Position numbers and translations under genes: made by a program
Source of the DNA: a virus
IMG/VR virus record: IMGVR_UViG_3300037847_001854
Coordinates: 1 to 23,275 of that record
Length of the DNA stretch: 23,275 nt
Strand: one strand, 5' to 3'
The notes under the pieces: model-generated
The model's input: only the letters and a program-made list of their open reading frames with translations
Database searches by the model: none
What the model was told of the DNA's origin: nothing
Shown: piece after piece, positions 2,749-9,283 of the stretch
Layout: each line of letters starts with the position of its first letter
Numbering within the stretch: position 1 is the first letter of the stretch

Positions 2749-4749
2749 CTATGTAGAATCTGTATCTGCTAATCTAATAAATGTAAAGTATGTATAGTTT
2801 ATACTTGTACTTCCAAAAACAGTATTACTAGAACTATTCCCACTAATTTTAAATCTTACTTTATGAGTTGATGTACTAGCAACATCAACAATAGTTTGAG
2901 CAACTATTGTAGTCCTCGCACTACTATTGTAAACACTTCCTTGTGCAACAGTAGCATCACTATAACCACTACCTGTTGTTACCTGAATATGCAAGTTGGT
3001 TTCAGCATCAGCTGCACCATTACCAAATAATACGTGTGCTTGTACTAAATAATGCCCTCTAGTTGGAAATGAAAAAACACCAGAGGTTTGAGAAACTTGT
3101 CCACTATCTCCTAGTGTACTATCTGCAGTAGTATCATCTTGTTCAAGGTTTGTTGCAATTGGGTCAGCATCTCCTGTAAAATCACTTGTCAACCTAAAAA
3201 TTACTGCATTATCTATACCACCACCTGATGCTGTTAATTGTCCACTTGAAGCACTCAAGCCTGTTCCTGCTATTGCTGATACAAAGTCTGCTACAGATTC
3301 TTTATTCATATTACCTGTAGCTCCACCATCAAGGAAAAGCAGATAGTCACTTGCAACTGCTACTGTATCTTCTGTTGCTAGTTGAGGAGAAAGTTCTACA
3401 AAATTATCTAAGCCTACTTTTTTAAGAGTACCCCCATCAGAGTAAAGTAACTCATCTTCTGCTGCAAGACCTGAAGATATTTCTGTTTGACCAGATATAA
3501 CATTGTTATTTAACATTCCAGACTCTACTGCTGTTGATTGAATTGTTCCAGCACCAGTTACATTTCCTGAACCATCAAAAGAAGCTGATGTCCAAGCCAC
3601 ATCTCCAGTCATAGCAATAGTTCTGCCTGTTGCTAATGCAGTTGCAGTATCAGCATTACCTGTTAATGCACCTATAAAACCAGTAGCAGTTATTTTACCT
3701 GTACTTGGATTGTATGTTAATGTGCCGTCAGATTCTAAGCCTATATTACCACCATCTACATCACCACCAGCTGTAAATACAATTGCGTTGTCTTCGTTTG
3801 TAGATTCGTTATCTGTAATTGTTACAGTTGTAGCAACTGTAGCTGTGTCTGCATTACCAGTTACATCTCCAGTAACATTACCAGTCAACGCTCCAATGAA
3901 ACCTGTTGCTGTAATCTTTCCTGTGCTAGGGTTATAAGTTAAAGTACCATCTGACTCTAGTCCAATATTTCCACCGTCAACGTCTCCCCCTGCTGTAAAG
4001 ATAATAGCATTATCCTCATTAGTAGATTCATTGTCAGTTATAGTTACTGTAGTTGCAACAGTAGCCGTTGATGCTGTACCAGTTACATTACCAGTTACAT
4101 TACCAACAAATGTTGTAGCAGTAACAGTACCAGAACTAGGATTGTAATGAAAGTCTCCATCAGATTCTAGTCCTACATTTCCAGTTGCAGAAGCATCTTC
4201 TATAAATGGAATTAAATTATTTTCATTAGTGCTTTCGTTGTCTGCAACAGTTACATGAGTTGCATTAGTAGCTGTACCTGTTACATCACCTGTAATAGGA
4301 CCAGCAAAGGCATCAGCTGTTACAGTACCATCAAAGAAAGCATCTTTAAATTCTAGTGAACTTGTTCCTAAGTCAACATCATTATTAGTAACTGGAGCTA
4401 ATGCACCATCTACTAGTTTGATTTGGTCAGCACCAGATGCTCTAAATAAAATTGTATTATCAGTTGCAAAGTCTATGTCGTTGTCAGAATCTCTACCAAT
4501 TACTAAACTGGTATTTAAAACAGATGTAACACCTGTTACAGTTGCAGTCCACTCTGGAGCAGATGCACCTGAGTTTACCTGTAATATTTTGCCAGCTGTC
4601 CCTATACCTAGTCTTGATAACTGAGTAGTAGAACTAGCATATATAATATCTCCAGCTGCTTGAGAATCTAAAACGTGTGACGTAGTACTTTCGTACTCTG
4701 CCTGAGTTAATTCTGTTCCAACTGATGCGTGTTTAAATTCATTTGCCAT
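2749..4749 (-). CDS. Tail fibre/adhesin with repeats and C1q/TNF-like tip
   Basis: The 666-residue protein is rich in Thr, Gly, Asn, Asp and Ala. Residues 1-110 probably attach it to the particle (SVGTELTQAEYE..., a common start in phage fibre proteins). Residues 140-365 hold three repeats built on TDNESTNEDNAI, GLESDGTLTYNPSTGKITAT and FIGALTGN. The first repeat is degenerate and the next two are nearly identical. Residues 365-510 form a linker with SDGGTLKK- and ATGNMNKES-type segments. Residues 514-666 begin FRLTSDFTGDADPIATNLE and end YTYFTFIRLADTD, a pattern typical of C1q/TNF-like jelly-roll domains at marine phage fibre tips. Role: receptor contact, probably as a trimer. The start overlaps the upstream stop as TAATG. 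The family and role come from composition and position. Confidence 0.85.
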   Translation of the reverse strand: MANEFKHASVGTELTQAEYESTTSHVLDSQAAGDIIYASSTTQLSRLGIGTAGKILQVNSGASAPEWTATVTGVTSVLNTSLVIGRDSDNDIDFATDNTILFRASGADQIKLVDGALAPVTNNDVDLGTSSLEFKDAFFDGTVTADAFAGPITGDVTGTATNATHVTVADNESTNENNLIPFIEDASATGNVGLESDGDFHYNPSSGTVTATTFVGNVTGNVTGTASTATVATTVTITDNESTNEDNAIIFTAGGDVDGGNIGLESDGTLTYNPSTGKITATGFIGALTGNVTGDVTGNADTATVATTVTITDNESTNEDNAIVFTAGGDVDGGNIGLESDGTLTYNPSTGKITATGFIGALTGNADTATALATGRTIAMTGDVAWTSASFDGSGNVTGAGTIQSTAVESGMLNNNVISGQTEISSGLAAEDELLYSDGGTLKKVGLDNFVELSPQLATEDTVAVASDYLLFLDGGATGNMNKESVADFVSAIAGTGLSASSGQLTASGGGIDNAVIFRLTSDFTGDADPIATNLEQDDTTADSTLGDSGQVSQTSGVFSFPTRGHYLVQAHVLFGNGAADAETNLHIQVTTGSGYSDATVAQGSVYNSSARTTIVAQTIVDVASTSTHKVRFKISGNSSSNTVFGSTSINYTYFTFIRLADTDST
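3655..4059 (-). repeat. Two tandem protein repeats with scrambled codons
   Basis: Copy A is 3877-4059 (fibre residues 231-291) and copy B is 3655-3837 (residues 305-365), 222 bases apart. They agree at 60 of 61 residues; the one difference is Ile250 versus Val324. By my codon-by-codon comparison 47 of 61 codons differ, 46 of them synonymously, and no identical run exceeds 8 bases. A more divergent third copy covers residues of about 163-225. These are repeats at protein level but not at DNA level. Confidence 0.85.
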
Positions 4750-7238
4750 TAGCTTGTTTTCACCTCATTCAATGTTAGTGATAGTAAATAAGACCTTTCT
4801 GTTGCAGCTCCACTAATAAATCTACGGTCTCTATCTATAGGTATTAAAGTCCTATTAGATATTCTAGCTCTATATTGAGTACCATCAATATCAGTATATA
4901 AAATAAATGCTTGCTGTCGCAAGGTATCTAAATTACTTAGTGTAGTAGACAATACTTGGCTATCACTAGCTTGACGTAATCTTCTACTTGTAAGTCTAGC
5001 ATCTAATAACTTTGATTGTAAATTCCATGTTAAATAATCAACAGGGTTGAATATAGAATGAACAACCATACTCAATATTCTTGGACCTATATCTGTTCTC
5101 AAACCTGTAGTCAATGTAAGTTTGAATCTAATACGTTTAAAAGAAACAGGTGTTGTTAAAGATGGTGTTAGTACTTGATGCCCAGAAGACGTAAGTGTAC
5201 CTATATCAGTCCACCCTTGGTCATCATCATAAGTAGAATCATCAGTCTTATAGGATAATTTTACTGTACTATCTGAGTCTACATTGTTAGTTAAGAAAGC
5301 AATCTTTGCTAATGATTTTTCTTGGTCTGGAAAATTGAAGTCCATAAAAGATGTATAAAATTCACCAGATGTTCTTATTTGCCTGCTACCAACTAAGCTA
5401 GGATGTTCATTTTCTACAGGCATAACCAACCTAGTTATTCTAGGTTCATCTTTATTCGTTGCAGCTGTATCTGGATTTTCAAATACTCCAAAAGCAAACA
5501 AATTAGAAATACTAGATGACGTACTAACATTATCTTTGTATCTTGCAAGTTGATTACACTCAGTCATATCTAATGAAGAAATAGTATGTGCTACTGTTTC
5601 AGAACCACTACCTTTACTATCTCTTTGGTTTCTAATAGTTGCTATATATATTTTCTGGGAAATTCCCCCAGTACTAAAATCAAAAGGAAATGTATATGGA
5701 TACAACTGCGTTTGTGGTTTCAAATCATCAGAAACTGTAACAAATATATTATTTACATCTTGTGCTATTGATGTAACTCTACCACCAAAACCAATAAAAC
5801 TAGTTGCTCTAAGCAAATAAGATATATCTTCCCATTGATTATCTTGCACCAAAAAAGGTATAGACCAGAATGCTCTGTCTCCAGATGTTGCAAAGATTCT
5901 ACCTGCCCTTGCAATTGCTCTGTTAAAATTATTACTACCAGTAAATAAATTAGCTTCTGGAGATACATCTCTAAACTGGTTAACATTTCTATCATATACA
6001 AATAATCCATCTTCCTTACCAACTACCAAAGTGTCATTAGCTGAGAAAGCATTGGTTACATTTCTATCTGACTTACCTACCTCTAGTTCTCCACCCCATA
6101 CAGGCGAACTAACTGCTGGGTCAACTAGGAATGAAACCTTATTAGAATATACTTTTGCTATTGCATAATCTCCGTTGGCGTTCCTAGCCTTTACGAAGAA
6201 CTGTGCTCTTGCTACAGATGCACTTGAACTTGTTACTGCATTTACAGTAATAGTTGTACTTGCTGGATTACCACCAACTGTTATGTAAAAATATTTATAG
6301 TTACTACTGCCATCTATATTGTCGCTACCTACTAGCAACTTACCATCAAAGACTTCTATTGTAGACATTACCCTATCAAAGTAATAACCTACATCAAATG
6401 CTTTTCTACTTTCATTCCAAAACAAAAGTGTCTGTCCAGATATTGCATATAGGTATCCTTCAAAGTTGACTGGAGGTACAGGAAAAGATACACCACCTGC
6501 TGGGATTACACATATATCATCTACTTGCCAAACATCTGATGCCGTACTAAATGTAAGTGTTATTGAAGTAGCAGCAGTAGCTGCTGTGCCTTGTATTTCT
6601 ATCAAAGAATAAGATGTACTAGTAGATGAGTTATCACTACCAGAACCATTAGTTGTAGTAAGTGTACAACTACCACTACCAGATACTCTTTTTACATATG
6701 CTAATACTTGATAGTTTTGTCCATTCAAAGCTGCTGCTGACTTAGCAACAAATGATTGAACTAGAGTACCATTGTTAGAACCAACAGTTACTTTTAGAGA
6801 AGCATCTCCTGACCTAGGGTCAGTAGTATCTCTTTCTGGTGTTACGTTAGTTGCAGTCCATTGATTAATTTCAGTATCTTCAAATCTACCATTTCTAATA
6901 ATCATATCCACTTCTTCTTGTGCATAACCTAAAGTTATCTCACCTTCAAAGTTTGCTAACACACCATCTGAATAACCATATTTAGCATCTTTACCAAAAT
7001 TTCTATCTTCACCTTGACCAAATCCTCTATGAAAAGATGTAAGGTCGTACGTCATAGAAGCGTTAGGGTCAACCTGTTGGTAGTTCGCATCATCTGTTGG
7101 TTGTCTAGGGGGTAAGAAAGGCTTAGAGCTAAGAGAATAGCCGTTTGTTAAGTTAGGACTATCCTTCCATAATGTTAGTTCTACAGGATTTGAACTGCCG
7201 TCTGTGTTTTGTAATATTACATCTGTATGTTGTGGCAT
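4749..7238 (-). CDS. Large virion structural protein with carbohydrate-binding-like domain
   Basis: The 829-residue protein is nearly all beta-rich. Residues 1-110 form an N-terminal domain (PNLTNGYSLSSKPFLPPRQP). Residues 113-246 form a jelly-roll-like module that starts IIRNGRFEDTEINQWTATNV and ends WQVDDICVIPAGG, the usual layout of CBM4/9-type carbohydrate-binding domains. Residues about 255-505 contain repeated strands such as LLFWNESRKAF, GKLLVGSDN and LVVGKEDGLFVYD, suggestive of a beta-propeller. The remaining part (about 600-829) is mixed and ends with a helical segment (SRRLRQASDSQVLSTTLSNL). It lies between the neck candidate and the fibre, so a tail or tail-spike platform is likely. 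TAATG overlaps link it to both neighbours. I do not recognise a named family for the whole protein. Confidence 0.8.
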   Translation of the reverse strand: MPQHTDVILQNTDGSSNPVELTLWKDSPNLTNGYSLSSKPFLPPRQPTDDANYQQVDPNASMTYDLTSFHRGFGQGEDRNFGKDAKYGYSDGVLANFEGEITLGYAQEEVDMIIRNGRFEDTEINQWTATNVTPERDTTDPRSGDASLKVTVGSNNGTLVQSFVAKSAAALNGQNYQVLAYVKRVSGSGSCTLTTTNGSGSDNSSTSTSYSLIEIQGTAATAATSITLTFSTASDVWQVDDICVIPAGGVSFPVPPVNFEGYLYAISGQTLLFWNESRKAFDVGYYFDRVMSTIEVFDGKLLVGSDNIDGSSNYKYFYITVGGNPASTTITVNAVTSSSASVARAQFFVKARNANGDYAIAKVYSNKVSFLVDPAVSSPVWGGELEVGKSDRNVTNAFSANDTLVVGKEDGLFVYDRNVNQFRDVSPEANLFTGSNNFNRAIARAGRIFATSGDRAFWSIPFLVQDNQWEDISYLLRATSFIGFGGRVTSIAQDVNNIFVTVSDDLKPQTQLYPYTFPFDFSTGGISQKIYIATIRNQRDSKGSGSETVAHTISSLDMTECNQLARYKDNVSTSSSISNLFAFGVFENPDTAATNKDEPRITRLVMPVENEHPSLVGSRQIRTSGEFYTSFMDFNFPDQEKSLAKIAFLTNNVDSDSTVKLSYKTDDSTYDDDQGWTDIGTLTSSGHQVLTPSLTTPVSFKRIRFKLTLTTGLRTDIGPRILSMVVHSIFNPVDYLTWNLQSKLLDARLTSRRLRQASDSQVLSTTLSNLDTLRQQAFILYTDIDGTQYRARISNRTLIPIDRDRRFISGAATERSYLLSLTLNEVKTS

Positions 7239-8854: not shown

Positions 8855-9283
8855 TTACACTCCCATATCGCTTAATTCGTCTACAGAAAAATATTTTTCT
8901 TTATGCTCTACCAATCCACTTGGATGAGTAAGCTTTGTTAAAACAGTATAACCTTTTACAAAACCAAAATCATCTTCATGAGCAAGTAAAGTAAAAGCAG
9001 GTTTCTTAGCTCTTACTCTTTCCATTGCTCTTTTTCTTTTTAGTTCTTTCCAGTCAGTTGTTTCTAATTGCTGTCTTGCTTGTTCGTATGCTACTTTAGC
9101 AGCTTTGTCACTATTATTAGAATGTTTTCCAACCACGTCTTGAGCCATTTGTGCTACAGACTCAGTATCACCATATGCGTATCTGTTATCAGGTATAAGA
9201 ACTTTTAAATCTTTATCTGGTACATCTACTTCAACTACAGTTTCGTCAGGTTTTTCTATAAATCTATTTTTATCGTGAGCCAT
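8855..9283 (-). CDS. 142-residue hypothetical protein of the head-tail region
   Basis: The N-terminus is acidic (PDETVVEVDVPDKDLKVLIP, residues 12-31). A helical, charged middle follows (SDKAAKVAYEQARQQLE, then LKRKRAMERVRAKKP), and the C-terminal domain is beta-like (FGFVKGYTVLTKLTHPSGLV). It is soluble with no membrane segment. The KYFSVDELSDMG end looks like a folded domain closing helix. Start and end fit the compact operon: TAATG upstream, a one-base gap downstream. I do not recognise a family. A minor structural or assembly role is inferred from position only. Confidence 0.65.
   Translation of the reverse strand: MAHDKNRFIEKPDETVVEVDVPDKDLKVLIPDNRYAYGDTESVAQMAQDVVGKHSNNSDKAAKVAYEQARQQLETTDWKELKRKRAMERVRAKKPAFTLLAHEDDFGFVKGYTVLTKLTHPSGLVEHKEKYFSVDELSDMGV

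Follow-up and report, generated by a model that had tools for sequence, protein, structure and literature searches.

How do two adjacent segments of one phage protein come to be almost identical in amino acids and yet be written in largely different codons? The question is raised by a tail-fibre gene in a metagenomic virus record from IMG/VR (IMGVR_UViG_3300037847_001854), of which we analysed a stretch of 23,275 bases, here called the window. A preliminary description of this DNA had offered two readings. One was selection that disfavours recombination or slippage deleting a repeat unit, the other acquisition of a domain from a relative that had diverged under protein constraint.

The fibre gene and its two module copies

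Large terminase and major capsid genes were recognised near the fibre gene in the 23,275-base record. The best annotated matches of the terminase are distant (25-28% identity; the 12 best listed of 19); for part of the fibre, the pelagiphage HTVC033P comes closest among annotated phages, with 86% over residues 72-158. The fibre matched no Pfam model at E 0.1; its PHROG matches are weak and include phrog_30742, tail fiber protein (E 5e-6). Upstream, in the same direction, lies a gene for an 829-aa protein with a match to the carbohydrate-binding family CBM_4_9 (4749-7238, minus strand, E 1e-5). A small basic protein with DUF6321 (E 1.3e-23) is encoded at 1049-1324 on the minus strand, and this gene is adjoined by two small lysine/arginine-rich ORFs (1324-1566 and 1685-1876) with no Pfam match. 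Parts of the fibre gene are listed in Table 1, where L001, L002, L003 and L015 are our handles for related fibre loci.

Table 1. Parts of the fibre gene in the window (GC3, GC content at third codon positions; nt, nucleotide identity).
Feature	Position	Strand	Basis or relatives
Tail-fibre gene, 666 aa, mosaic of exchangeable segments	2749..4749	-	ORF; weak PHROG matches; segment-wise mosaic against L001, L002, L003
C-terminal head, residues 495-666, predicted C1q/TNF-like fold	2752..3267	-	AF2 model and Foldseek
Linker, residues 366-378 (ADTATALATGRTI)	3616..3654	-	L001 identity back from about here; L003 identity continues
Module copy B, residues 302-365, GC3 0.125	3655..3846	-	Groups with the single copy of L003 and the second of L002
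A-B spacer, residues 292-301 (VTGDVTGNAD)	3847..3876	-	
Module copy A, residues 228-291, GC3 0.219	3877..4068	-	Groups with the first copy of L002 and the third of L015
Linker, residues 216-227 (GNVTGNVTG...)	4069..4104	-	L001 identity stops here
Third module, diverged, residues 163-225	4075..4263	-	95-98% nt shared with L001, L002

The AF2 model of the shaft is poor (mean pLDDT 48.7) and usable no further than one hairpin per module, such a hairpin being predicted in each NPSTG/NPSSG segment. The C-terminal domain was modelled better, with a pLDDT of 62-84 by ten-residue blocks over residues 551-640 and below 50 at 445-513. Foldseek, run with this low-confidence model, returned C1q, TNF-family, adiponectin and collagen NC1 heads among the 50 matches listed (best E 6e-6); its output comes without a query range, and the match presumably falls in the C-terminal domain. 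A sequence search of the PDB with the C-terminal part gave nothing convincing (best E 0.16). The modules probably form a stalk for a C1q/TNF-like receptor-binding tip; the stalk would vary in length and composition, and its tip would be exchangeable.

Alignment of copies A and B at an offset of 74 codons showed 63 of 64 residues to be the same, the sole difference being I250/V324. Codons differ at 48 of the 63 shared residues, 142 of 192 bases match and no stretch shared in register is longer than 8 bases, which confirmed the near-identical adjacent protein copies in scrambled codons that had been described. When codons are drawn as the other genes of the window use them, the expectation over all 63 codons is 32.0 ± 3.8 mismatches, and none of 20,000 draws reached 48. 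Whole-fibre usage gave the same expectation (32.0; P(≥48) 1e-4 in 20,000 draws), usage of the fibre outside the copies 31.3 (none in 20,000 draws) and a next-base-aware null 30.7 (0 of 100,000 reach 48). Permutation of codons inside a copy, which keeps its own make-up, raised the expectation to 39.2 (P 0.002). A and B share no 9-mer, against 19.7 expected (P 0.002). The count of 14 different codons among 18 two-fold degenerate positions also stood; the accompanying expectation of about half was too generous given the AT-ending bias, phage usage predicting 5.7-6.5 mismatches (P 2e-4 or less) and each copy's own codon make-up 10.6 (P 0.05).

The third copy (residues 163-225), which had been proposed as a control, is saturated without any excess. 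Its codons are at expectation against A (16 of 34 differ, 16.6 expected) and slightly below it against B (14 of 33, 16.1 expected). As this copy is merely saturated, the mismatch excess is numerically real but specific to A versus B.

Module lineages and the mosaic of the fibre

Searches with copy A revealed 520 IMG/VR stretches encoding a relative and, in prokaryote contigs, two loci with relatives, in a Pelagibacter MAG and a SAR116 genome. From each of four IMG/VR scans the best 80 were kept, of at least 593, 520, at least 295 and at least 353 relatives. The 159 sequences searched held 170 module occurrences in 100 genes, 44 of them non-redundant, with one module in 27 genes, two in 13, three in 3 and five in 1; the window's own entry (L081) was left out of the comparisons. 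An identical 62-aa core is encoded by four modules with distinct DNA, namely that of L003, two in L015 and A of the window. Among annotated phages, the module query found two weakly matching records, both of S-RIM8 (43%), and the third-module query found no match; the whole-fibre query matched around B in S-CBS4 (47%, query 315-403) and in the Nitratiruptor phages NrS-4 and NrS-5 (44%, query 330-407). The three isolate fibre regions contain a single repeat pair at ≥75%, in S-CBS4, with an observed/expected mismatch ratio of 0.87; because close copies were not found there, the isolates give no control for assembly bias. The unit is a shaft module that occurs widely in the fibres of marine phages, and the survey documents it as one without a Pfam match that is common to many uncultured marine phages.

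A tree was built from 82 module DNAs, thinned at 92-95% nt identity with the copies of the window, L002 and L003 exempt. A joins the first copy of L002 (L002_227; support 100/96) and then the third copy of L015 (L015_346; 94/94), and B joins the only copy of L003 (L003_331) and the second copy of L002 (L002_338; 100/94) in a clade that sits inside a 33-row group (96/82). The deepest split of the tree (85/86) thus separates the two copies. The nearest DNAs follow the same order, L002 first copy and L015 third copy for A, L003 only copy and L002 second copy for B, so that copies cluster across genomes rather than within one. Pattern scans for A-like and B-like DNA recognised no further genome with copies of both lineages. 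A topology with A and B as sisters was rejected (AU p 0.011, cost 61 log units; p 0.045 on third positions alone), whereas one clade of all five copies of the window, L002 and L003 was tolerated (AU p 0.244). A recent tandem duplication is therefore excluded, and an old one would be compatible with the second result; shared GC3 could also pull A towards the high-GC3 rows of the tree. Each copy being closest to a different outside lineage, the suggested domain gain from a diverged relative under protein constraint gains support.

Individual comparisons with three relatives showed how the fibre is put together. DNA identity to L001 is 92% over residues 1-163, 98% over 163-225, 97% over 366-494 and 96% for the C-terminal part; L001 lacks both A and B and carries another insert at their location, with switch points at the GNVTGNVTG linker and NADTATALATGRTI. 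L003 has no A; its nt identity to the fibre is 95% in B and 98% in the 129 residues after it (366-494), and its C-terminal region has 46% protein identity to the fibre. L002 contains both copies in the same order with a different spacer (third module 95%, A 90%, B 87%), and residues 366-494 are without a match there. With B alone in L003, neither copy in L001 and both around another spacer in L002, the copies behave as exchangeable cassettes. A near-identical segment in otherwise different fibres (L003) and near-identical flanks around a different insert, with switches at the linkers (L001), are both present. The pattern is one of module exchange between related fibres, with the linkers as putative crossover sites; recombination at the linkers, the direction of transfer and the function are inferred.

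Elsewhere in the window, the product of the gene at 8855-9283 (minus strand) is 100% identical in protein to that of L005, with 1 of 137 shared codons different, and only about 50% identical to those of L001, L002 and L006, despite neighbour genes that are 90-98% identical. This is an apparent allele swap.

Codon mismatch in other modules and repeats

In a first survey of modules (pairs with fewer than 40 shared codons left out, redundancy thinned, L003 merged with the window), the mean z was -0.74 for 32 within-gene pairs and -0.75 for 2,171 between-gene pairs; the window pair had a z of 4.03 and the between-gene maximum was 3.05. A second survey, corrected for codon make-up, covered 3,183 module pairs (fewer than 45 shared codons excluded; window, L002 and L003 copies exempt from thinning). 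Here the means were -0.95 within genes (32 pairs) and -0.84 between genes (3,151 pairs; one-sided p 0.82), and the window pair ranked first (z 3.23) and the orthologous pair of L002 fourth (2.76). A third set consisted of 177 non-redundant within-gene repeat pairs of ≥85% protein identity and at least 38 shared codons, which are non-independent as they come from 74 loci. Their mean z was -1.34, with the window pair at the top (4.09) and L129 second (3.06); the L002 pair is absent from the listed rows and was probably merged with that of the window as redundant. Saturation is common in this set, 83 of the 177 pairs reaching ≥0.9 of the expected mismatch. The distance between copies had no effect (Spearman 0.04, p 0.59), and 25 of 177 pairs have at least 30 consecutive bases in common in register, the longest such run being 161. 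As calibration, 11 comparisons of diverged orthologues of two other genes, each with over 200 codons in common and a protein identity of 40-54%, gave observed/expected ratios of 0.87-1.05, and smaller orthologue comparisons scattered up to 1.25. The 177 repeat pairs and 3,183 module pairs make a calibrated set for judging claims of selected scrambling in phage fibres.

Two further observations came from the repeat pairs. Near-identical DNA (ratio below 0.1) occurs in none of the 177 pairs and only 2 lie below 0.3, which could reflect loss of recent duplicates in assembly. The fibre ORF of L151 contains tandem 114-aa repeats at about codons 325-552 with 99% protein identity and saturated synonymous codons (63 of 113 differ, 55.6 expected).

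Comparison of the window with L002 revealed six sites at which both copies have changed: five keep the mismatch, one is neutral and none creates a match. A crossover would yield the same pattern at three of these five sites, which fall within the last seven codons, and given a mismatched ancestor five out of five is non-significant (about 0.75^5 = 0.24, estimated by hand). Over the remaining 43 quartets the total is -15, from 51 sites counted as positive, 65 as negative and 10 as neutral; L151/L153, one of these quartets, also reaches +9. L002 has no repeated 12-mer in the whole gene against 9.4 expected, and 0 of 60 shuffles were as low. Such fibres are at about chance level, with 3 of 44 in the lowest 5% (L002, L151 and L129); repeated 12-mers equal or exceed all 60 shuffles in 19 of 44 fibres. 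Gene-wide avoidance of DNA repeats was rejected because repeated 9-mers lie above the codon-shuffle mean in 38 of 44. General codon scrambling was likewise rejected on the within/between comparison, the quartet test, distance and the third-copy control. Selection against recombination or slippage, as first proposed, is thus unsupported beyond the A/B lineage, given within-gene pairs no more discordant than others, the third copy, the lack of a distance effect and the long runs in relatives. At a ratio ≥1, within-gene pairs are closer in protein (mean 0.892, n=10) than between-gene pairs (0.779, n=2,111); we make no claim of protein-level homogenisation within a fibre, since saturated sites no longer tell time and variants are common to fibre families.

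Part of the A/B excess can be traced to composition. GC3 is 0.27-0.44 in four array fibres that the tree places near A, and 0.124 in this fibre when the copies are left out; A itself (0.219) is only intermediate. Drawing A from the array fibres and B from this fibre gave 39.4 expected mismatches (P 0.013), the module sets of both clades 39.3 (P 0.012), array-fibre usage for both copies 39.1 (P 0.011) and the copies' own usage 41.0 (P 0.036). The contention that usage-matched simulations would fall short of the mismatch therefore held with the phage's own usage, where most runs did not produce as much, and lost force with that of A's relatives (P 0.011-0.036). For the maximum over 177 independent tests, the chance of reaching 4.09 is 0.004 and that of reaching the composition-corrected 3.02 is 0.20. 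Composition hence explains much of the excess, and the choice of an extreme case can explain the rest.

Explanations and comparison with known systems

We consider it quite probable that the locus is mostly ordinary, the product of module shuffling and purifying selection that set two old module lineages side by side. A and B would be members of one widespread marine-phage fibre-shaft module with two old DNA lineages, and would have become neighbours when fibre genes exchanged modules, the switches falling in short linkers, G-N/D-V-T-G and NADTAT. The module protein would be held nearly constant by purifying selection while synonymous sites saturate. With A from a lineage whose relatives have more GC-ending codons, the A/B mismatch would exceed the prediction from phage usage, and the leftover excess would be chance together with the reader's pick of the most extreme case. 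This account builds on the two lineages, the mosaic, the saturation and the composition difference, all of which were observed. Against it speak the outlying position of the pair under phage usage (z 4.09) and its first rank after make-up correction, with the L002 pair fourth, the double changes between window and L002 of which none creates a match, the tolerated five-copy clade, the deepest split at only 85/86 and A's intermediate GC3. The tolerated clade leaves room for an old duplication in this phage lineage, long before the window and L002 split, followed by purifying selection on the protein and saturation of the codons by drift. In its favour, both copies have orthologues in L002, arranged likewise, and within-gene pairs are closer in protein at equal saturation. 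However, the best tree parts A from B, their placement as sisters is rejected, losses are needed to leave L003 with B only and L001 with neither, and the GC3 of A tends towards that of another lineage, so that we regard such a duplication as unlikely.

Selection against recombination or slippage could have driven the synonymous codons of A and B apart in this lineage. The excess over saturation under phage usage, the missing shared 9-mers, the first and fourth ranks of the window and L002 pairs among 3,183, the five non-neutral double changes that all keep the mismatch and the lack of any repeated 12-mer in L002 are in its favour. In the lineage of the window and L002, a change in one copy would then be answered in the other, shielding the two-module stalk from recombinational deletion; we give this version little credence. 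The surveys, however, show no within-gene shift over 32 pairs and a negative mean z over 177; the 43 other quartets are negative in sum, the third copy is without excess and distance without effect. Long shared runs in 25 of 177 pairs, the abundance of repeated 9-mers and 12-mers in most or many fibres and the non-significance of the five sites likewise count against it. Since the signal comes from one lineage and from a case selected by the reader, we hold selection to be improbable. Near-identical repeats are disfavoured by short-read assembly. An assembly chimera joining the fibres of two populations is conceivable in a metagenomic record, and the same assembly bias may account for the absence of near-identical DNA among the 177 pairs; but L002, on a separate contig, has both lineages in one gene, downstream of B, L003 continues with the DNA of this fibre at 98% nt and the reading frame is open throughout, which makes an artefact highly improbable. 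On the preferred reading, module exchange and purifying selection, two ordinary processes, would explain an eye-catching pattern.

In the literature searched, which was partial, neither this module nor codon scrambling under selection in fibres was described. Comparable patterns are known from other repeats. Polyubiquitin, like A and B, consists of head-to-tail repeats near-identical in protein with many synonymous differences, and concerted evolution and birth-and-death are debated for it (PMC10457151, which cites a 2000 paper by Nei and others in this debate). One side invokes purifying selection with birth and death of copies, and the same question is raised for filaggrin repeats (PMC5225520). 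The mark of birth-and-death, a conserved protein with saturated synonymous sites, is found here (63 of 64 residues the same, 48 of 63 codons different). In polyubiquitin, repeats of one locus are generally closer in DNA than those of different species (PMC10457151); A and B, in contrast, differ at least as much as modules taken from different phages do, and copies pass from phage to phage. Mosaicism of tail-fibre domains is established in phages (PMC10684548), and marine phages have variable host-recognition islands (PMC3909814); replacement of fibre-gene segments among related phages is shared with the present fibre. PMC3909814 also places C1q-like genes among the receptor-binding genes of marine phages, a likeness to the predicted head of this fibre, and describes fibre-specific repeat patterns without sequence similarity, whereas here one shaft module is common to many fibres. 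The A/B case belongs with known polyubiquitin-like repeats and with the shuffling of fibre domains.
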